This document shows, piece by piece, positions 8,162 through 17,517 of a stretch of 64,000 bases of DNA; the stretch's first letter is position 1; each line of letters begins with the position of its first letter. The notes beneath the pieces are model-generated. The model was not told the DNA's origin. It saw only the letters and a list, made by a program, of their open reading frames with translations, and ran no database searches. A program made the position numbers and the translations under genes. The DNA is taken from positions 991,651 to 1,055,650 of the forward strand of contig NZ_LMKQ01000001.1 in assembly GCF_001421565.1 (NCBI RefSeq), read 5' to 3'. The stretch is from Agromyces sp. Leaf222 (GTDB lineage Bacteria > Actinomycetota > Actinomycetes > Actinomycetales > Microbacteriaceae).

Positions 8162-8337
8162 TCGGCGCCCTGCGAGCGGCCTCGCCGCGATCAGCGATCG
8201 CGCGAACATCCGTGACGTACCCTCAGGGAAGGACGCCGGTTCGACGGACGGCGGTTCACCCGTGGTCTACACCTGCCATGACGGATGCCGGTGAGCGAGC
8301 TCGAGCCGACACCGGCAGCCGCACAACTGGAGCCCAC

Positions 8338-9498
8338 ATGAACACGCCGACACCCGCTCTCCTCAAACTCGGGGTGTTGGTCACCTCTCGCAAGACCGAC
8401 GAGCGGCGACTGCCGATCCATCCCTCCCATCTCGAGCGGATCGACGCCGACCTGCGCGCGAACATGATCCTCGAGCACGGCTACGGCGAGCGTTTCGGCT
8501 TTTCGGACGAACAGCTCGCTCCGCTGGTGGGCGCGATGGCCACCCGCGAGGCCATCATCGCCGAGGCCGACGTCATCGCCCTGCCGAAGCCGCTCGCATC
8601 TGACCTCGCCGAATTCCGCGATGGACAGGTGCTGTGGGGCTGGCCGCACTGCGTCCAGGACCGGGACATGACCCAATACGCCATCGACAAGGGCCTCACG
8701 CTCATCGCGTGGGAGGCCATGAACCATTGGAAGGCCGACGGCGGGTTCGGGCTGCACGTGTTCCACAAGAACAACGAGATCGCGGGGTACTGCTCCGTGC
8801 TGCACGCCCTGCAACTGTGCGGCTCAACGGGCGACTACGGCCGGCGGCTCAACGCGGTGGTGATCGGCTTCGGCGCGACGGCACGCGGCGCCGTCACCGT
8901 GTTGAACGCGCACGGCATCCACGACGTGCGCGTGCTGACCAACCGCGACACGGCTGCCGTCGGCTCCCCGATCCCGTCCGTCGACATCATCCAGTTCGAA
9001 CACGACCCGGAGGCGCCGTTCGCGAGCACCGTGAACACGGAGGACGGCCCGGTCGCACTCGCCCCGTTCCTCGCCGCGCACGACATCGTCGTCAACTGCA
9101 CCCTGCAGGATCCGAACGCACCGCTGACCTACCTGCGCACCGAGGACCTCGGGGCCTTCCGCCCCGGCAGTCTCATCGTCGACGTCTCGATCGACGAGGG
9201 CATGGGATTCGAGTGGGCGCGGCCCACCTCGTTCGCCGATCCGATGTTCACGGTCGGTGATTCGACCAACTACTACGCCGTCGACCACAGCCCTTCGTAC
9301 CTGTGGAACTCGGCCACGTGGGAGATCAGCGAAGCCCTCATGCCGTTCCTCCGCACCGTGATGGAGGGCCCTGGGGCCTGGGCCGAGTCGGACACCATCA
9401 GCCGTGCGATCGAGATCGAGGGCGGTCGCGTGCGCAACGAGGCGATCCTGCAGTTCCAGGCGCGCTCGACCGAGTACCCGTATCCGGCGCTCGTGTGA
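8338..9498 (+). CDS. N5-(carboxyethyl)ornithine synthase-like dehydrogenase
   Basis: A 386-residue NAD(P)-dependent enzyme related to alanine dehydrogenase and the PNT alpha subunit. The N-terminal catalytic domain begins LGVLVTSRKTDERRLPIHP, which resembles the substrate-binding start of that superfamily, and includes GWPHCVQDRDMTQYAID. The C-terminal Rossmann domain has VIGFGATARGAVTVL. Family members condense an amino acid with pyruvate by reductive amination (N5-carboxyethyl-ornithine synthase in Lactococcus) or oxidise alanine. The precise substrate here is not proven. GGAG precedes the ATG at 8338. It is a single-gene unit, convergent with the broken epimerase gene. Confidence 0.75.
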   Translation: MNTPTPALLKLGVLVTSRKTDERRLPIHPSHLERIDADLRANMILEHGYGERFGFSDEQLAPLVGAMATREAIIAEADVIALPKPLASDLAEFRDGQVLWGWPHCVQDRDMTQYAIDKGLTLIAWEAMNHWKADGGFGLHVFHKNNEIAGYCSVLHALQLCGSTGDYGRRLNAVVIGFGATARGAVTVLNAHGIHDVRVLTNRDTAAVGSPIPSVDIIQFEHDPEAPFASTVNTEDGPVALAPFLAAHDIVVNCTLQDPNAPLTYLRTEDLGAFRPGSLIVDVSIDEGMGFEWARPTSFADPMFTVGDSTNYYAVDHSPSYLWNSATWEISEALMPFLRTVMEGPGAWAESDTISRAIEIEGGRVRNEAILQFQARSTEYPYPALV

Positions 9499-9543
9499 GC
9501 GTCACCGGGTGATGGCGGCAACCACCGCGGTCGGGTGACAGGA

Positions 9544-10291
9544 TCAGCGGCTGACCCGCAGGTCCTTCCACCCGAACCCGCCCGGTTCGGGCAGGCTCTG
9601 GCGGATCTGCTCGGCCGTGAACATTCGCCGGGGCAGCAGGTCGTCGGGGACGGATGCCGCGGGCGGCGCGGCATCGGTCACGCCCTCGGCGAGCATGCGC
9701 ACTTGCGCCTTCGCGACGAGCGGCACCTTCATGGTCCACTCGGTCACTTGCGCGAGCGCGAACTGCGCCCACACCGGCCACGGCACCACGACCACGCGAC
9801 GACCGACGACGGATGCCACGCGCCGCACGGCCTTCGACAGCAGCAGTTGCTCGGCGCCGACGACCGCGACGGTCTCACGCGGCATCCGCCCGTCGACCGC
9901 GGCGACGAGGATGTCGGTGAGGTCGTCGATCGGGATGGGCCGGATCGCCTTCTCGCGGAAGCCGACGGTCGCGAACACCGGCAGGGTCTGCACGGTGTGG
10001 CTGAGGTGGTCGATGAGGTGGTCGCCGCGACCGTAGATCATGCCGGCCTTGAGGATCGTGTGGTCGAGGCCCGAGGCGCGGACCAGCTCCTCGGCCGCCC
10101 ACTTCGACTCGTGGTACGCGGACCCGCAGTCGGGGCGCGCCCGCAGAAAGCTCAGCATGATGACCTTGCGCACCCCGGCGCGCTTGGCCGCCTCGATCAC
10201 GTTCGCGGTGCCCTCGATGTGCACCCGCTGGTAGGTCTGCTCGCCGATCTCGCGGTTGATGCCCGCGCAATGCGCGATGACCTCGAACCCG
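9544..10291 (-). pseudogene. NAD-dependent epimerase/dehydratase, N-terminally truncated
   Basis: The open frame gives the C-terminal ~225 residues of an extended SDR (YHESKWAAEELV with the YxxxK pair, then KAGMIYGRGDH). Family-like sequence continues upstream in the same frame (GFEVIAHCAGINREIGEQ), equal to the end of the Rossmann fold, up to about 10290. There it stops at the end of the large NTPase gene of the adjoining islet. The first ~65 residues, including the GxxGxxG NAD-binding loop, are absent, and I did not find them on the other side of the islet (14629-14870). Without the loop the product should be inactive. The most likely cause is insertion of the islet with loss of the 5' end. 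Confidence 0.75.
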
Positions 10292-13200
10292 TCAGGAGTT
10301 CTCGATCTCCGTGCGGAGATACTTACCGCGGGCGATCATGTCTTTGATAACCTCGCGAAAACCGCCGACTGACCGATCCAGCGCGCTTTGAAGACGCCTG
10401 AAAGAGAGTTCCAGATCGTCAATGTCGAGATCGCTAGTTTTCGTGCTCCAGTGAAGCGGGCATATCGACATCGTTTCTTCACAGGCAATCAACAGAGCCC
10501 GGCCCTGAAGATAGGCAAGCTGCTCCGTCCTTGATGAGGTAGCTGCGAATATGCGTGCCCCTTCCATTGCGGTCAATGCGGCCACGACCCTCTGGATTTT
10601 CTTGTCTCCGAGGAGAACGTGCCATCGAAGCAGGATGGACGAGAACTTCAATAGGATCTTGGGGTTCGTGAACTCTTGCGCGATCAATTGCAGTCCGAAC
10701 GGTGCGCCCTGGTCGCGCAGCAGGTTCTCGCAGCGCTCGAAAATTTCTCGCTTCGTCCAGACCTCGTTCAGTGGCCCAGAAGTCGTGAAGAGCGGCCACA
10801 ATGCCTCTGCGGATGGCGGGAGTACGCCGCGATGCAGTTCCACACGTGCGCGCAGACCAATGAGTGCACTTTCGGCGTTTGCCTCCTCGAGCCCACCGAG
10901 TAGCTGGATCGCCTCACCGCAAAGTCCCTCGACATCCTGGTTCTCCTGGCGCGCTACCTTGTCTATCAGCGCTTGCGCGAGCGTTTGACGGGTCCTACGC
11001 GCCGTCGCACGATTCGCGATCGACGAGCCAAGCAAGGCACGCAGTTCAATGATCGCGTCGTCAGTCCGCCCTATGTACCGCATGTACGAGGCCCGTACGA
11101 GTTGGAGTTCGGCCAGGGGCCCCCGTTCACGGATCGCTTCGTCGAGCACAGCGAATACAGGTTCTTCGTTGGTCACGCCGTTCCTGAACTGGGCCAACGC
11201 TCGCTGATATTGACGTTCGATGCGGAACCGTTCAAGGTGTACCTCGGTTTGCCCGTTCCACCGCTTAGCGAGGTCGTGGAGGCGCGCACGTCGCTTCAAA
11301 TACTGTGCCTTGAACGCGTCGAGCTTGGCGTCGACGGGGAGCCTCTGCCAGTTCGGATCTTCCCTGATCACGGCATTTATGAGGCTTCCCTCTCTCGCCC
11401 AAGACCGCCGGAGAATCCATACCTCGTTCTCGAACTCACGTGCTGAGCTCATTCGTCGTGCCCGAGACCATTTCCGGTACTCGCGGATCGTTCCGTCGGC
11501 CGAAGTCAGCTGTTCACGGGACATCCAAGTGGGATCAAGCGCGGCGTCGTATGCCGAGGGAGCGATACGGTCGACCGCTCGCATGTACAGTCCCCACAAA
11601 GTCGCATTCGGCGCGTCCAAAGTCGCCTCCCGCAGCATCGCTATCGCGTTCAGCCGGAGTGTGTGTGCGCGCTGCCGCTCGCTTTGCTCGGTACTCATCC
11701 TTAGACAGTCGGAAAGAGCGAGAAGGCCACGAATGACCGCCGAGAGTGGTCGGGCATCACCGAAACGGGACAGGGCGCGTGCGTCGTCATGAATGTCCGC
11801 CGCAATGGTTAGCGCCTTCTCGAGCAACTCCGCTCGCTCCGACAGGGGAAGCTCAACGCTCGCGGAGCGAACCACAGCAAGTACGCGAGCCACTATCGCT
11901 GCTCGAGTTTCGACAGTAGAAACCCGGGACGCGTCTTCAAGCAGTCGTTGGAGCTGTTCGGTGATTCGGATGGCAGGCATTCCCCGTGCAGCACCGAAGT
12001 CGAGGAGCGTCGCGCGGGCGGTGAGCGCGTCCCGCGCGGTGATCGTCTGATCGTCAAGGTCGCGGTCGAGACGACTGATGACCTCGTCGATGGCCACGAC
12101 ACCAGCGCGTGCGCGGAGAACATCTAGGCTCATGCGCGTGCGCGTCCAGGCTTGGACGGACATATTCGATTCAGCCGGTTTGCTGCGTTCAAGCGCTGAA
12201 TGCAGTTCGGTCATACGGGCCATCGCATCGTCGTGCCTTGAAACGAAGAGCAGGCCGCGAGCCGAGTCGTGCAGCAACTCAAGGTGTGACGCCGCCGCAA
12301 TCGAGTGTGCGTCACTCTCAATGTTGTCGAGGAATAGTTCCCGAGCCAAGACGGCCTCGATTTGGAAATTGACTCTGTTCTCTACCTCCGCGAATGCTTG
12401 CTTAACGAGTGCGGCACCGATCTGGTCGTCAATGCGGTAGTCCGCGCCGCCGTCGAGGAATGCCGCTCGGACTTCGCTTAGAAAACTGTCCGCGTCCGGG
12501 GATGTTCGTGCCAAGAGCAGCAAATCTGCGGTCGTGAGCGGCTCCGCTGCCATGCGGAGTGCCGTCGTGTTAGTTTGGTCAGTTAGCACAGGGCCCATCG
12601 GATCGCCGACAGTCATTCGCGCTATGCGGTCACGAATGCGACGGTGGACCTTGCGGACGGACTCCGTATCCAAGCCCGCCAAGTTGGAGCAGAGCAGGAG
12701 TTCAAGGATTTGCCTCGGGGCTGCGTCCAGAAGTAGGTCCAGAACTTCTTCAATCAACTCGTGGTCAATATGGCCGAGAATCGCCGCGTCGGCAAGCAGA
12801 CGGAACCCCGCAAGTCTGACTTCCGGACGAATCTCGCCGGACGCGTCGTTCCACCCCAGCGCATGCGCGAGCGGAGCTTGGTCGTGAGGATCGGCATTGG
12901 TGCCCTGCGAGATCGACTGAACTAACCAACGGGGCCAGAGCCGCTCCCCGTCGGGTACATGCGCCGTGATTCGGTCAATGCCGGTAAGAAATTGGCGCAC
13001 CGCTATGTTGGTCAGCTCTTCGGCAATCTTGAATGCATCGCCATCGAGGTCAATACGTCCGCCGGCTGAGACGATTACGCCCGGCAGCCGGTGGGGCTCA
13101 TCAATTAGTTCGATTGCATCCTGTGCAACCGCGACGCCGAGACCTGTCTCCGCTGCTAGGAGGTTTGCGGCATCCGACTTACCCAATGAGCCGATCGAGA

Positions 13201-14323
13201 TCGGTGGTCTAGTTCGGAGGCCGAGAGGAAGCTCGGGCGCGGGGGCCCAGGCCACCACGACAACAGCCGCCCATCCCAGTACCCCGGCCTGTAGAACTTC
13301 CAACAACGATTTTTGTCCGCTGGCCGTTTGGAAGAGACCCTCCCCCGCGTCGAGCGCTAGGCCGACTGGTGCAGCCCCGAGCTTGCGCCGAATACCCAAT
13401 TGCACATAGGCAGCGGCTTGATCGTCTATCTCTAACGCCCGCCGATCGTCCGTATCTGTGAGAACTTCGAGGTGCTCTGCTAGCGCTCGCAGTACTGGGC
13501 TGCGCCCGAGGATGAATCCAGTGAGATTGACGTAGGCGTACCTGCTGTAAATGTTGCCCTTGAGATCGACCGACTCTGAGGACATCCACGCTGCGATGAG
13601 GGCAGTCTTTCCCGAGGACGGCGGGCCGGCCAGAACGCGAACGGATCCGAGTGAGGTCCTGCTTTGAAGGTCAGCAACCTCCGTGACACGGCCATGCAGC
13701 GTTCCGAACGGGGGCGGCGGCGGTGGGGTGATGTGCTCAATCGGATTACCACCAACGGCGGCGCGCCATTGGCCAGCAACTGTTGCAGTCTCTTCGTTGC
13801 TCTGCAACCCGTTCAGGAAAGCTGCAATGGTTGCTGACGGCACAAGGTAGCCGCCCAACGCATTGTCTTTGTCACGCGTCTTGTGAACCTGGCCAATGAC
13901 TCGCCCGCTCGCCAATGAGACCACCGGAGCCCCACTGAAACCTGGAATTATCTGGCCGCTTCCAACCTTGAGTTGGTAGTCGAAGCTGGTGCCGCGGGTA
14001 CCTTCGATAGTAACCATCGCGCTATCGAATGAGTCCGCTGTGGCAGCTCGTACTAGGCACCGCTCGTCGAACGCCCACTCCTCCGCAAGGAGCATCCAGT
14101 TCGAGCGTCGGACTGGCATCCGCAGTAAGACAACGTCGGTGTCGTCAACTTGGATCACTGAGTCTGCCGGAATACGAGCGCCATCGATCGTGACAATCGG
14201 ACGACCGTCGACGATATGTCTACTCGTAGCAACAAGGTCGGGGCCAACAAACCACCCAGTGCCAAGCTTCAAGCCGCGAACAGGAACAACGCATCGATCA
14301 ATTAATTCGATGAGTCGATCCAC
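10292..14323 (-). CDS. Trypsin-like protease / STAND-type NTPase / helical-repeat protein
   Basis: A 1343-residue protein with a modular layout. Residues ~1-175 form a trypsin/HtrA-like serine protease with a plausible triad: His36 in TSRHIV, Asp63 in DDTDVVLLRM, Ser130 in PGFSGAPV. A Pro-rich linker (~200-205) leads to a P-loop NTPase with Walker A GPPSSGKT (233-240) and a likely Walker B ending at Asp325 (VGLALD). The remaining ~900 residues are helical; parts near the end look TPR-like (LVRASYMRYIGRTDDAIIEL). No signal peptide or membrane helix is seen, so it should act in the cytoplasm. The GTG start at 14323 overlaps the stop of the trypco1 gene. Such proteins are known from bacterial conflict systems, where the NTPase-repeat part senses a trigger and the protease is the effector. 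Its exact trigger and substrate are unknown. Confidence 0.82.
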   Translation of the reverse strand: MDRLIELIDRCVVPVRGLKLGTGWFVGPDLVATSRHIVDGRPIVTIDGARIPADSVIQVDDTDVVLLRMPVRRSNWMLLAEEWAFDERCLVRAATADSFDSAMVTIEGTRGTSFDYQLKVGSGQIIPGFSGAPVVSLASGRVIGQVHKTRDKDNALGGYLVPSATIAAFLNGLQSNEETATVAGQWRAAVGGNPIEHITPPPPPPFGTLHGRVTEVADLQSRTSLGSVRVLAGPPSSGKTALIAAWMSSESVDLKGNIYSRYAYVNLTGFILGRSPVLRALAEHLEVLTDTDDRRALEIDDQAAAYVQLGIRRKLGAAPVGLALDAGEGLFQTASGQKSLLEVLQAGVLGWAAVVVVAWAPAPELPLGLRTRPPISIGSLGKSDAANLLAAETGLGVAVAQDAIELIDEPHRLPGVIVSAGGRIDLDGDAFKIAEELTNIAVRQFLTGIDRITAHVPDGERLWPRWLVQSISQGTNADPHDQAPLAHALGWNDASGEIRPEVRLAGFRLLADAAILGHIDHELIEEVLDLLLDAAPRQILELLLCSNLAGLDTESVRKVHRRIRDRIARMTVGDPMGPVLTDQTNTTALRMAAEPLTTADLLLLARTSPDADSFLSEVRAAFLDGGADYRIDDQIGAALVKQAFAEVENRVNFQIEAVLARELFLDNIESDAHSIAAASHLELLHDSARGLLFVSRHDDAMARMTELHSALERSKPAESNMSVQAWTRTRMSLDVLRARAGVVAIDEVISRLDRDLDDQTITARDALTARATLLDFGAARGMPAIRITEQLQRLLEDASRVSTVETRAAIVARVLAVVRSASVELPLSERAELLEKALTIAADIHDDARALSRFGDARPLSAVIRGLLALSDCLRMSTEQSERQRAHTLRLNAIAMLREATLDAPNATLWGLYMRAVDRIAPSAYDAALDPTWMSREQLTSADGTIREYRKWSRARRMSSAREFENEVWILRRSWAREGSLINAVIREDPNWQRLPVDAKLDAFKAQYLKRRARLHDLAKRWNGQTEVHLERFRIERQYQRALAQFRNGVTNEEPVFAVLDEAIRERGPLAELQLVRASYMRYIGRTDDAIIELRALLGSSIANRATARRTRQTLAQALIDKVARQENQDVEGLCGEAIQLLGGLEEANAESALIGLRARVELHRGVLPPSAEALWPLFTTSGPLNEVWTKREIFERCENLLRDQGAPFGLQLIAQEFTNPKILLKFSSILLRWHVLLGDKKIQRVVAALTAMEGARIFAATSSRTEQLAYLQGRALLIACEETMSICPLHWSTKTSDLDIDDLELSFRRLQSALDRSVGGFREVIKDMIARGKYLRTEIENS

Positions 14324-14628
14324 TACTCGGCCTTCGAAGCCCACTCGACGCTGACTTGCACGCCAAAATCTGCAGTCGGACCGCCGATCAGGCTCACAAA
14401 CGCGCCAGATTCCCACCCAACTCCAACGGTGAAAGTAACGGTCGTCTTGTCCGGTACAACGTCCTCAAGTTCTTCTCGCAACTTTTCCGCGAACGGCTTG
14501 ACCCCGGCTAGTAGTTGGCCAATTTTGATGCGTGCCTCTTCAAATCCCACCTCCTGCTCGGGGTCGGTGGTGCTTACTGGCATAAGCACGTGAGTGCCGT
14601 CGTCGAGGTCGATGCGAACGATATCCAT
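14323..14628 (-). CDS. Trypsin-co-occurring domain 1 (trypco1)-like protein
   Basis: A 101-residue protein with the shape of the trypco1 family: an N-terminal strand with DDGTHVLMPV, a helix of about 30 residues (IGQLLAGVKPFAEKLREEL), then three beta-strands ending in GVQVSVEW. It has no enzyme motif. The family was named because its genes sit beside trypsin-like protease genes in NTP-dependent conflict systems, which is exactly the arrangement here. GGAGGAG lies just before the ATG at 14628 and the stop overlaps the GTG of the protease-NTPase gene, so the two are co-translated. It may be an adaptor or inhibitor of the protease; that is inference. Confidence 0.78.
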   Translation of the reverse strand: MDIVRIDLDDGTHVLMPVSTTDPEQEVGFEEARIKIGQLLAGVKPFAEKLREELEDVVPDKTTVTFTVGVGWESGAFVSLIGGPTADFGVQVSVEWASKAE

Positions 14629-14834
14629 ACTTGCTCCTCCAGTGCGTCTGCGATTCGCCTTGCGCGGCGACAGCGATGTGGCTTTCTCGACAGCAACGCG
14701 TGCATGCGTTGGCTCCGGTCGGTGGCTGCGACACTATCGATGGAATGCGCTAGCAGTCGATGACACGCCGCATCCTGGATTCGCATGAAGTGAGGACGCA
14801 ACGCGCCGGGAATACACCAGCCCCCGCCGCGTTG

Positions 14835-14859
14835 AACTTGAGCGTACGCCACTCAAGTT
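14835..14859. promoter_or_regulatory. HAIR element (HspR operator)
   Basis: AACTTGAG (14835-14842) and CTCAAGTT (14852-14859) form a perfect 8-bp inverted repeat around 9 bases. The core CTTGAGC-N7-ACTCAAG differs at one base from the HspR-associated inverted repeat CTTGAGT-N7-ACTCAAG. It lies 13 bases before the Clp ATPase start, so HspR probably represses this gene until heat or protein damage. Confidence 0.85.
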
Positions 14860-14871
14860 CCAGGAGGATTG

Positions 14872-17517
14872 GTGCCCGAAGACTTCAACCCCGAAGCCGG
14901 TGCGAGCTCGTTCGACGAGTTTCTGAGCCGGTATCTCGCGGGTGAGCAGGCTCGCCAGGCTCGGTCGATCGACCTCAGCCGGTTCCTGACCGCCCGCACG
15001 CAAGGCATCCTGCAGAAGGCAGGACGCTTCGCGCTCGAGCGCGGCCAGACCGAGCTCGACGCCCTGCACATCCTGCGCGTGATCGTCGAGGACGACAGCG
15101 TGAAGCAGGCCGTCGCCCGCATCGGCGTCGCCCCCGAGCGGCTCATCACCGCGACCGAGGCGCGCCTGCCCGCGGCATCCGATGTCGCCGATATCAACGC
15201 GGCCACGATCACCCCGAGCGCTTCCCGCGCGCTGTTCCACAGCTACCAGGTGGCGCGCTCGGCCGGCTCGACCTACATCGACCCCGAGCACCTCTTCTTC
15301 GCGCTCGTGCTGGGGCAGGACGCCCCCGCCGGCCAGGTGCTGGCGCGCGCCGGCGTCACCGCCGAGGCGCTCACGCAGGGCATGCGCGAGACCGTCGAGG
15401 CCGGGTTCGACGGTGACGACGCCGAGCAGTACGGTGCGAACGGCGCCGGCTCCGAGGCATCCGCGACCCCGATGCTCGACAAGTTCGGCACCGACCTCAC
15501 CGCCCTCGCCGAGAACGGCGAGCTCGACCCCGTGATCGGACGCGTGGACGAGATCGAGCAGACCATCGAGATCCTCAGCCGCCGCACGAAGAACAACCCC
15601 GTGCTGATCGGCGAGGCCGGCGTCGGCAAGACGGCGATCGTCGAGGGCCTGGCGCGCGCGATCGTCGAGGAGTCGGTGCCCGAGGCCCTGCTCGAGAAGC
15701 GCGTCATCTCGCTCGACCTGCCCGGCATGCTCGCCGGCACCCGCTACCGCGGCGACTTCGAGGAGCGCCTCACCAAGACCATGGAGGAGATCGCCGCGCA
15801 CAAGGGCGAGCTCATCATCTTCATCGATGAGATCCACACGGTCGTCGGTGCGGGCGGCTCCGGCGACGGCGGCACCGACGCCGGCAACATCCTGAAGCCC
15901 CGCCTCGCGCGCGGCGACCTGCACCTCGTGGGCGCGACCACGCTCAAGGAGTACCGCACCATCGAGAAGGACCCCGCCCTCGAGCGCCGGTTCCAGCCGG
16001 TTCGCGTCGGCGAGCCCTCGATCGAGGACGCGGTGCTCATATTGCGGGGCCTGCGCTCGGCATACGAGGAGCACCACGGCGTCGAGTACACGGATGCCGC
16101 GCTGCGGGCCTCCGTCGAGCTCTCGGCCAGGTACCTCACCGACCGCGTGCTGCCCGACAAGGCCATCGACCTCATCGACCAGGCCGGGGCGCGCCTGCGC
16201 CTCAAGCTCGGCATGAAGACGGATGTCTCCGCGCTCATCGCGCGGCTCGCCGACCTCGAGGCCGACAAGAACGCCGCCGTGAGCGCCGAGCACTACGAGG
16301 AGGCCTCGCGCATCCGCGACGAGATCTCGAAGGTGCAGGAGCGACTCGATCGGGCGACGTCCGCCGGTCGAGTAGCGACGCAGGAGCGTATCGAGACCAG
16401 CGCCAGCGAGGGTTTCGATACGCGTGCTCCTTCGTCGCTCGCTACTCAACCGGCGACGACCATCGACGAGCCCGAGATCGCCGCGGTGATCTCGCGGGCC
16501 ACCGGCATTCCGGTGAACCGCCTCACCGAGACCGAGCGCGAGCGCCTCGGCGACCTCGAGGGCGAGCTGCACGCGCGCGTCATCGGCCAGGACGACGCGG
16601 TCACCGCGGTCGCGAAGGCCGTGCGCCGCAGCCGCACCGGCATGGGCGACGCGCGTCGACCGGTCGGGTCGTTCCTGTTCCTCGGCCCGACGGGCGTCGG
16701 CAAGACGGAGCTGGCGCGTGCGCTGGCAGACCGCCTGTTCGACGATGAGGGTGCGATCATCCGCTTCGACATGAGCGAGTTCGGCGAGCGGCACACGGTG
16801 TCGCGCCTCGTCGGCGCCCCTCCCGGATACGTCGGCTACGACGAGGCCGGGCAGCTCACCGAGCGCGTGCGGCGCAACCCGTACTCGATCGTGCTCTTCG
16901 ACGAGATCGAGAAGGCGCACCCCGACGTGTTCAACCTGCTGCTGCAGGTGCTCGACGACGGACGCCTGACCGACGGCCAGGGCCGCACGGTCGACTTCCG
17001 CAACACGGTGATCGTGATGACCTCGAACCTCGGTTCGGAGTTCCTCGCGTCGCGCTCGGGTGCGCTCGGGTTCGTCGCGTCGACGGATGGCTCGGGCTTC
17101 AGCTCCGCCGCTGACGTGCGCAACCGCGTCATGGGCAAGGTGCGCGAGGCCATGCGCCCCGAGTTCCTGAACCGCATCGACGAGATCGTGCTGTTCCAGA
17201 AGCTCGGCGCTGACGAGCTGTCGCAGATCGTGCGCCTCATGCTCGGTGCCACCTCCGCTCGCCTCGCGGCCCGCGAGGTCGAGTTCGAGGTGACGGATGC
17301 CGCGGTCGCACTGCTTGCAGAACGCGGCTACGAGCCCGAGTACGGCGCCCGACCCCTGCGTCGCGTGATCCAGCGCGAGGTCGACGACCGCATCGCGGAC
17401 CTCTTCGTCTCGGGCGCGCTCGGCGACGGCGAGGGCGTGCGGGTGGATGCCGCAGACGGCGAGTTCGTGATCGTGCCTGTGCCCCGGGCGACGGTGACGG
17501 TGCCGCTGGCGGCCTAG
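14872..17517 (+). CDS. clpC: ATP-dependent Clp protease ATP-binding subunit (ClpC-like)
   Basis: An 881-residue AAA+ unfoldase. It has an N-terminal Clp repeat region (~25-170), a first AAA domain with Walker A GEAGVGKT (Lys253), a UVR-like coiled coil (~453-493, [16 protein letters not shown]), a second AAA domain with [10 protein letters not shown] (Lys611), and a C-terminal D2-small domain ending near [11 protein letters not shown]. The UVR segment in place of the long ClpB middle coil argues for ClpC rather than ClpB, although HAIR control is better known for clpB. GTG 14872 follows AGGAGG by about 5 bases; TTG 14869 is too close. Oddly, residues ~498-528 are encoded by a dispersed palindromic repeat inserted in frame between the UVR segment and AAA2. 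Confidence 0.88.
16363..16454. repeat. Palindromic repeat inserted in frame within clpC
   Basis: The left arm (16363-16398, beginning GCCGGTCGAGTAGCG and ending TATCGAGACC) pairs with the right arm (16411-16454, beginning GGTTTCGATACG and ending GCTACTCAACCGGC). The arms are imperfect but share the same outer and inner blocks as the copy at 17527-17592. The element keeps the reading frame open and encodes about 31 residues rich in Ala, Ser and Thr at an interdomain linker. It looks like a small non-autonomous repeat (REP/MITE-like). Confidence 0.75.

Follow-up and report, generated by a model that had tools for sequence, protein, structure and literature searches.

The Gene Pair at the Locus

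Here, we describe a pair of overlapping genes in Agromyces sp. Leaf222, located in a 64,000-nucleotide stretch (the window) of contig NZ_LMKQ01000001.1, positions 991,651 to 1,055,650 of the forward strand. The first gene encodes a 101-residue Trypco1 protein, and the second a 1343-residue protein in which a trypsin-type serine protease, a P-loop NTPase and a long, probably helical C-terminal arm are joined. The pair, probably a little-studied bacterial immune system, lies in an islet of low guanine plus cytosine (GC) content between a broken epimerase gene and a conserved Clp-family gene (Table 1). Base 14323 is common to both open reading frames (ORFs), in agreement with the one-base overlap pointed out in an earlier inspection of the letters and ORFs (the sequence-only reading). 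GGAGGAG is found five bases 5′ of the Trypco1 start. For the second gene, the GTG start at 14323 was preferred over a longer ORF from 14416, because the start of a metagenomic relative, P0005, is only five residues further out. According to the ORF list, the islet holds no further effector gene besides the pair.

TABLE 1. Features of the islet and its surroundings, in coordinates of the window.
Feature	Position	Strand	Basis
Trypco1 protein, first gene of the pair	14323..14628	-	101 aa; PF19493, NF041216
Trypsin-P-loop NTPase-helical protein	10292..14323	-	1343 aa; GTG start; 1-base overlap with Trypco1
Trypsin_2 domain, residues 21–144	13892..14263	-	PF13365; His36, Asp63, Ser130
P-loop NTPase region, about residues 200–480	12884..13726	-	Walker A 233–240, Asp325; AAA_16 below cut-off
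Helical C-terminal region, about residues 481–1343, possible alpha-solenoid	10295..12883	-	Low-confidence predicted secondary structure (AlphaFold2)
Low-GC cargo segment (islet)	10294..14806	.	GC profile; left junction; right edge at the start of sequence shared with relatives
Epimerase/NAD-binding gene remnant, without first ~47 codons	9544..10293	-	PF13460 E 1.5e-9; junction against relatives
Clp promoter region	14809..14857	+	GGAAT 14809–14813; GTT 14831–14833; inverted repeat 14837–14857
Conserved AAA+ gene of the Clp family, next to the insertion site	14869..17517	+	Below ClpA and ClpB equivalog cut-offs

Domains of the Two Proteins

Profile searches placed both proteins over the Pfam cut-offs of the families proposed for them beforehand, Trypco1 and Trypsin_2. 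The 101-residue protein matches PF19493 (expectation value, E, 2.1e-10; 41.5 bits against a cut-off of 24.6) and the NCBIfam model NF041216 (E 1.8e-8, 35 bits against 23), and the gene overlapping it carries Trypsin_2, the neighborhood expected of a Trypco1 protein. In the accessible text of Kaur et al. (2020; PMC7159879), Trypco1 and Trypco2 are named as neighbors of trypsin-type peptidases, and a paper of 2024 terms both of them adapter domains. A literature search, with most subscription papers outside it, found Trypco1 defined and annotated, and no functional test of it. Trypco1 as an amphipathic-strand, pore-like protein was considered and rejected: the strand-amphipathicity value of this copy was reached by 47 of 500 shuffles, which is not significant, and those of six other Trypco1 copies by 11 to 76 of 500.

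The N-terminal region of the 1343-residue protein matches PF13365 (Trypsin_2; E 6.2e-10, 40.4 bits against 27.6). A script check verified the complete triad suggested earlier, His36, Asp63, and Ser130, together with GPPSSGKT at 233–240, its Lys239, and Asp325. The triad aligns with that of P0005 and with one solved structure entry, the nearest solved relative (E 7e-4), which we take to be MarP, a membrane-associated serine protease; the score with the MarP equivalog model is 21.3, far below the cut-off of 250. The position six before the catalytic Ser is Gln in this protein and Asp in one of eight compared, which makes cleavage after Lys or Arg by the protease doubtful.

In the next region, Asp325, the likely Walker B residue of the sequence-only reading, is kept in the two relatives found (P0004 and P0005; see below), and the Walker A motif in P0005. 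Asp325 ends a hydrophobic strand, is invariant in all three sequences, and is followed in all three by an acidic residue three positions further on, and Walker A is present in both sequences that cover it. Ser-Arg or Ser-Lys is found about 30 residues after the Asp325 stretch in two of the three, and a Pro (Pro414) is invariant. This arrangement matches what we take to be the STAND pattern, and the NTPase is named STAND-like here on the basis of its motifs and layout. AAA_16 matches the 1343-residue protein below the cut-off (E 0.016, 16.2 bits against 32.6), as AAA_22 does P0005 (E 0.013, 16.3 bits against 27). Among solved structures, the NTPase gave ORC1 at E 0.45 and worse matches, the corresponding piece of P0005 gave nothing, and a full-length profile made from two sequences reached E 0.096 at best. 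Matches to designed “Pizza” repeat proteins, to E 2.8e-7, had no single stretch passing, and were set aside as summed repeats.

The remaining C-terminal ~860 residues match no Pfam model, and no repeat family. In an AlphaFold2 model from two sequences, helices run throughout this region with low confidence (mean predicted local distance difference test score, pLDDT, 51.2), which is consistent with the ~900 helical residues predicted from the sequence. A model of residues 1–560 is poorer still (mean pLDDT 41.4). Foldseek with the first model gave 61 matches with E 0.001 or better, many of them presumably helical-repeat proteins; the template modeling scores, 0.08–0.32 in 50 of the 61, are too low for naming a family, and the matches serve as a hint.

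Among 5.8 billion proteins, the 1343-residue protein has two relatives besides itself, although remote ones may have escaped, because the searches scored about 8000 candidates each, picked by shared words. P0005, 1369 residues long and from a JGI metagenome, has Trypsin_2 (E 3.5e-11), the triad, Walker A and the entire C-terminus at 30–33% identity. P0004, 1087 residues long and from an uncultured Pseudokineococcus, is 41–44% identical to the end, its deposited sequence beginning just past Walker A. Active sites kept at 30–33% identity argue for a working enzyme. The C-terminal arm is conserved to its end in both relatives, and truncation of the protein by the islet junction was rejected: the three C-termini coincide, so the junction left the gene uncut. 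Searches of plasmids and of viral and GTDB contigs, with the phage collection outside them, found no relatives. In 394 genomes of the class, with at most two candidates scored per genome, matches in 16 genomes besides its own were short and confined to residues 20–246 (best E 1.4e-6).

Acquisition of the Islet

Foreign origin of the pair is supported by low GC, absence from related genomes and the broken epimerase gene. GC is 0.586–0.608 in the five 1-kb windows covering 10001–15000 versus 0.696 and 0.711 in the adjoining ones, and third-position GC is 0.65 versus 0.94 in the epimerase remnant; thus, the lower GC noticed by eye was borne out and uniform composition was not seen. Among 60 genomes of the genus, the pair is confined to its own, and neither gene was found in the 59 others by protein search at E 0.001. 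One of these relatives, G004, carries a different Trypco1 elsewhere in its genome, as a profile search showed. The islet ends inside the epimerase gene, as had been proposed, with the breakpoint at 10293/10294 coinciding with the stop codon of the 1343-residue protein (10292–10294), and in relatives the epimerase is longer at its N-terminus by about 47 codons.

The idea that insertion recurs at this breakpoint was considered and rejected: the apparent shared end is the limit of homology to the window, and most relatives’ copies run on. Intact, duplicated, frameshifted, and partial copies of the epimerase gene are present in several relatives (L030–L042), sometimes two or more per genome. The stretch 8179–9525, left of the islet, is 96.6–96.9% identical in loci L030 (9791–11138) and L042 (8547–9579; both in oriented coordinates), where it sits between epimerase pieces, not beside the epimerase. 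This shifted position may be a sign of repeated recombination at the site.

The Insertion Site beside the Clp Gene

All 41 genomes of the genus that were searched carry the Clp-family gene. Upstream of this gene, the inverted repeat CTTGAGC-N7-ACTCAAG (one mismatch; 0.04 expected by chance) and GGAAT-N17-GTT look alike by eye in 40 sequences; we take these elements to be heat-shock control of the SigH and HspR (HAIR) types. A site-specific junction on the Clp side was considered and rejected: all 40 sequences converge at GGAATA by eye, and since this is probably the −35 element of the Clp promoter, constraint on the promoter may be all that makes the edge sharp.

DNA upstream of the Clp gene was taken from 39 of the 40 other genus genomes (loci L029–L048 and L105–L123); G013, whose contig ends 1.7 kb from its Clp gene, was excluded. 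In 33 of the 39, the Clp gene is directly adjoined by a low-GC insert of at least 1.5 kb, one of the remaining six being limited by a contig end. A control was possible at the loci that span at least 14 kb, also 33 in number: the first 1.5 kb is below 65% GC in 28 of these versus five of 99 control windows 8–12.5 kb away. In other genera of the family, the same rule found inserts at two of 20 loci, which are part of 37 matching genomes.

The cargo genes mostly differ between genomes, Ppl being present in two. For cargo ORFs of at least 150 residues, called by a simple script with the inserts of L032 and L044 trimmed by hand, PADLOC at 1e-5 matched 366 families for 109 ORFs versus 95 families for 109 length-matched flank ORFs; some flank ORFs lie within further islands, and the flank matches include a type I restriction system. 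When the largest cargo ORF was taken from the first 20 of the 33 insert loci, nine matched PADLOC at 1e-5, and eight of the nine did so at 1e-15 or better: Ppl (1.8e-125 and 2.8e-120), HerA (8.6e-150), a type II methylase (7.8e-59), OLD (2e-26), PtuA (2.2e-25), a Ppl-like C-terminus (2.2e-19), and DpdB (4.2e-18), the weakest of the nine being mad8 (1.1e-7). Among seven PADLOC-negative proteins searched against NCBIfam, a TrlF ATPase (1.5e-72), an RNA 2′-phosphotransferase (1.9e-33), and a Sll1717 ATPase (1.4e-6) were matched, all below the cut-off, and four were without match. Pfam families among the 109 cargo ORFs include AAA_21 (six times), GmrSD_N (four), DndB and DUF4062 (two each), ThsB_TIR, and nSTAND_NTPase5, among the 25 of 63 families listed.

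Since inserts at this site are enriched in defense models in relatives, a defense setting is supported for the pair, which looks like one cargo of a genus-level defense hotspot beside the Clp gene. No paper on such a hotspot or on this gene pair was found in the literature, as judged from search listings and with most subscription papers outside the search. Several large cargo proteins match no defense model, and the site is therefore worth mining. Four of them, of 737–971 residues, have no PADLOC or NCBIfam match at 1e-5 and are candidates for unknown defense genes (L035:1142–4057, L037:2485–4986, L039:4369–6582, and L044:10577–12811).

Recurrence of the Gene Order

The sequence-only reading knew of no characterized counterpart with exactly this two-gene layout. 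The layout recurs: besides the neighborhood named by Kaur et al. (2020), a trypsin-domain ORF adjoins Trypco1 on the same strand at eight of the 20 Trypco1 loci read elsewhere in the order. These 20 loci come from 16 genomes, several of them ending at contig ends; a profile search of 396 genomes of the order had found Trypco1 in 17, including Leaf222. Six of the eight trypsin ORFs seeded the profile, and those of L095 (E 2e-27) and L097 (E 1e-5) did not.

By Pfam on seven of the neighboring genes, Trypsin_2 is over the cut-off in five (L082, L089, L094, L096, and L098), and in L085 WD40 models are among the 25 of 70 families listed. The parts fused to the trypsin domain are varied: NACHT and pentapeptide repeats in L089, CHAT and TPR with AAA_16 below the cut-off in L096, EAD2 and VMAP-C in L082, and, below the cut-off, AAA_16 in L098 and TPR in L094. 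These six pairs are alike in gene order and N-terminal trypsin (with listed families of the WD40 type for L085), and differ in their C-terminal parts. Judging from gene order and domain content, the arrangement of Trypco1 followed by a trypsin domain fused to changing parts recurs, and the 1343-residue protein is a divergent example of it with an arm of its own.

There are other arrangements. In L087, Trypco1 stands directly before a CHAT gene (Pfam), and L086 is alike by eye, with no trypsin ORF found at either locus; thus, a caspase-like protease may be another partner of Trypco1. A stretch resembling a calcineurin-type phosphoesterase was seen by eye between trypsin and NTPase in L085 and L089; Pfam at E 0.1 gave no such family for L089, and none among the 25 of 70 listed for L085.

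How the Pair Might Work

The reading we favor, and hold to be reasonably probable, is that the pair is an acquired intracellular defense system with a protease output, working like a bacterial NLR. That the pair serves defense at all is likely, and, given defense, a protease output is highly probable. The conflict or defense role proposed earlier gains from the enrichment of defense models at the site in relatives; the antiviral function, like the sensing, oligomerization, activation, and the role of Trypco1, is what we infer from domains and setting.

Findings on other systems (Tuck et al., 2025; PMC13236601; Kaur et al., 2020, 2021) point to a sensor arm, clustering by the NTPase and a protease thereby turned on as the likeliest working. 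The helical C-terminal arm would sense an invader-derived cue, upon which the P-loop NTPase would change its nucleotide state and oligomerize, and this clustering would turn on the N-terminal serine protease. Either Trypco1, once cleaved or set free by the protease, would then do the damage, or the protease would act directly on proteins of the host or the phage, with Trypco1 as its cofactor. Damage is assigned to these two routes because the islet has no other effector or nuclease gene. The one-base overlap may keep both proteins in step.

Several observations weigh against this reading. No PADLOC model matches either the 1343-residue protein or Trypco1 at E up to 1. Of the STAND-type NTPase called earlier, Walker A and the hydrophobic strand ending in the Walker B Asp stand, but the family name finds no profile behind it: no curated STAND, NACHT or AAA profile reaches its cut-off in the 1343-residue protein or P0005, NACHT gives no match, and the 1343-residue protein has no significant similarity to the L098 and L096 proteins by hhalign (BLASTP E 0.14 for L098). 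Both structure models are poor. At the Clp-side site, PADLOC counts are of families, not proteins, and related models match one protein repeatedly; 11 of the 20 largest cargo ORFs lack a match at 1e-5, and the matched flank control did not extend to these 20. Finally, no trypsin ORF was found at 12 of the 20 other Trypco1 loci, several of which are limited by contig ends.

Among the alternatives, the strongest is a variant of the favored reading in which Trypco1 is a regulator only, an adaptor or an inhibitor held on the protease, and harm to the cell or the phage comes from cleavage of other proteins by the protease. We give this possibility somewhat less than an even chance. It agrees with the naming of Trypco1 and Trypco2 as trypsin neighbors in the part of Kaur et al. 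(2020) available and as adapter domains in the 2024 paper, and with the strand amphipathicity of Trypco1, which is not significant. It also agrees with L087 and L086, where Trypco1 cannot be a substrate of a fused trypsin since no trypsin ORF was found. The lack of another effector gene in the islet speaks against it, as does the position of Trypco1, because the gene directly upstream encodes the substrate in Avs1 and protease-type Hachiman in the accessible text of Tuck et al. (2025; PMC12799240). For the role of Trypco1, regulator is ranked ahead of substrate.

It is improbable that the pair is not for defense and is instead an acquired stress or protein-quality-control module, sharing its function with the Clp neighborhood. 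The nearest solved trypsin relative, taken to be MarP, and the presumed heat-shock-type operator of the Clp gene would fit such a module. However, the MarP equivalog score is far too low, the Clp gene is in every genus genome searched and the pair in one of 60, and relatives’ inserts are enriched in defense models, with no chaperone among the 25 of 63 Pfam families listed. A selfish or inter-bacterial conflict element, such as an addiction module, would be sporadic and low in GC, with two overlapping genes and a small first protein, as seen here; but a 1343-residue protease-NTPase that carries a long arm does not resemble what we take to be usual toxin-antitoxin pairs, and other cargo of the site is often of defense type (nine of the 20 largest ORFs), so we regard this as a rather remote prospect. 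Decayed or inert passenger DNA is very hard to credit, for although the left edge of the islet truncates a neighboring gene, the 1343-codon frame is open, with triad, Walker A and C-terminus intact and the same end as in P0004 and P0005.

The favored reading, a defense system with a protease output, makes the pair a minimal version of such a system: two genes, and nothing else recognizable in the islet, at a site that in relatives is rich in defense-type genes. The pair therefore allows a direct test of the role of Trypco1, and of whether immune output can come, with no nuclease involved, from a protease joined to an NLR-like switch.

Comparison with Known Systems

Trypsin-STAND conflict systems have been predicted, according to the accessible parts of Kaur et al. 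(2020, 2021). The MoxR-vWA-VMAP ternary systems (Kaur et al., 2020; PMC7159879) resemble the pair in having Trypco1 beside a trypsin-type peptidase; in the available text, they differ in the presence of VMAP, MoxR, and vWA parts. Neither VMAP, VMAP-C included, nor vWA was among the Pfam matches of the pair or among those listed for the two flanking genes scanned, and the Clp gene has one weak, below-cut-off match of the MoxR-type AAA among the 25 of 49 families listed. In the CARD-NLR system LypABC (PMC13236601), as far as the accessible text goes, a trypsin-type peptidase also works with an NLR-like ATPase carrying TPR-like repeats, and lysis requires the peptidase serines. LypABC divides CARD-peptidase and NLR between two proteins, whereas peptidase and NTPase are fused here, and Pfam gave no CARD match in the pair, whose structure models are too poor for a fold to be recognized.

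The best reading of the layout is by analogy to AVAST type 1. In the systems compared by Tuck et al. (2025; PMC12799240), the gene for a trypsin-type protease, fused to a defense enzyme, directly follows a nuclease gene; Avs1b, the protease, activates the pro-nuclease Avs1a by cleaving it, the Hachiman protease likewise cleaves and activates its nuclease, and forced dimerization of the Hachiman protease is toxic. The pair is like Avs1a/Avs1b in having a gene directly upstream of an N-terminal trypsin-type protease fusion, and unlike it in that the upstream gene encodes not a metallo-β-lactamase-fold nuclease but the 101-residue Trypco1, which has no PADLOC model; Trypco1 would thus stand in the pro-nuclease’s place. 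That Trypco1 is the protease substrate, a proteolytically released pro-effector replacing the gated nuclease of Avs1 and protease-type Hachiman, is a tentative and rather unlikely extension of this analogy. If it is true, pairs of Trypco1 and trypsin fusions would be an immune-system class of their own, in which one executioner peptide is common to NACHT-pentapeptide, WD40, CHAT-TPR, and orphan helical-arm sensors.

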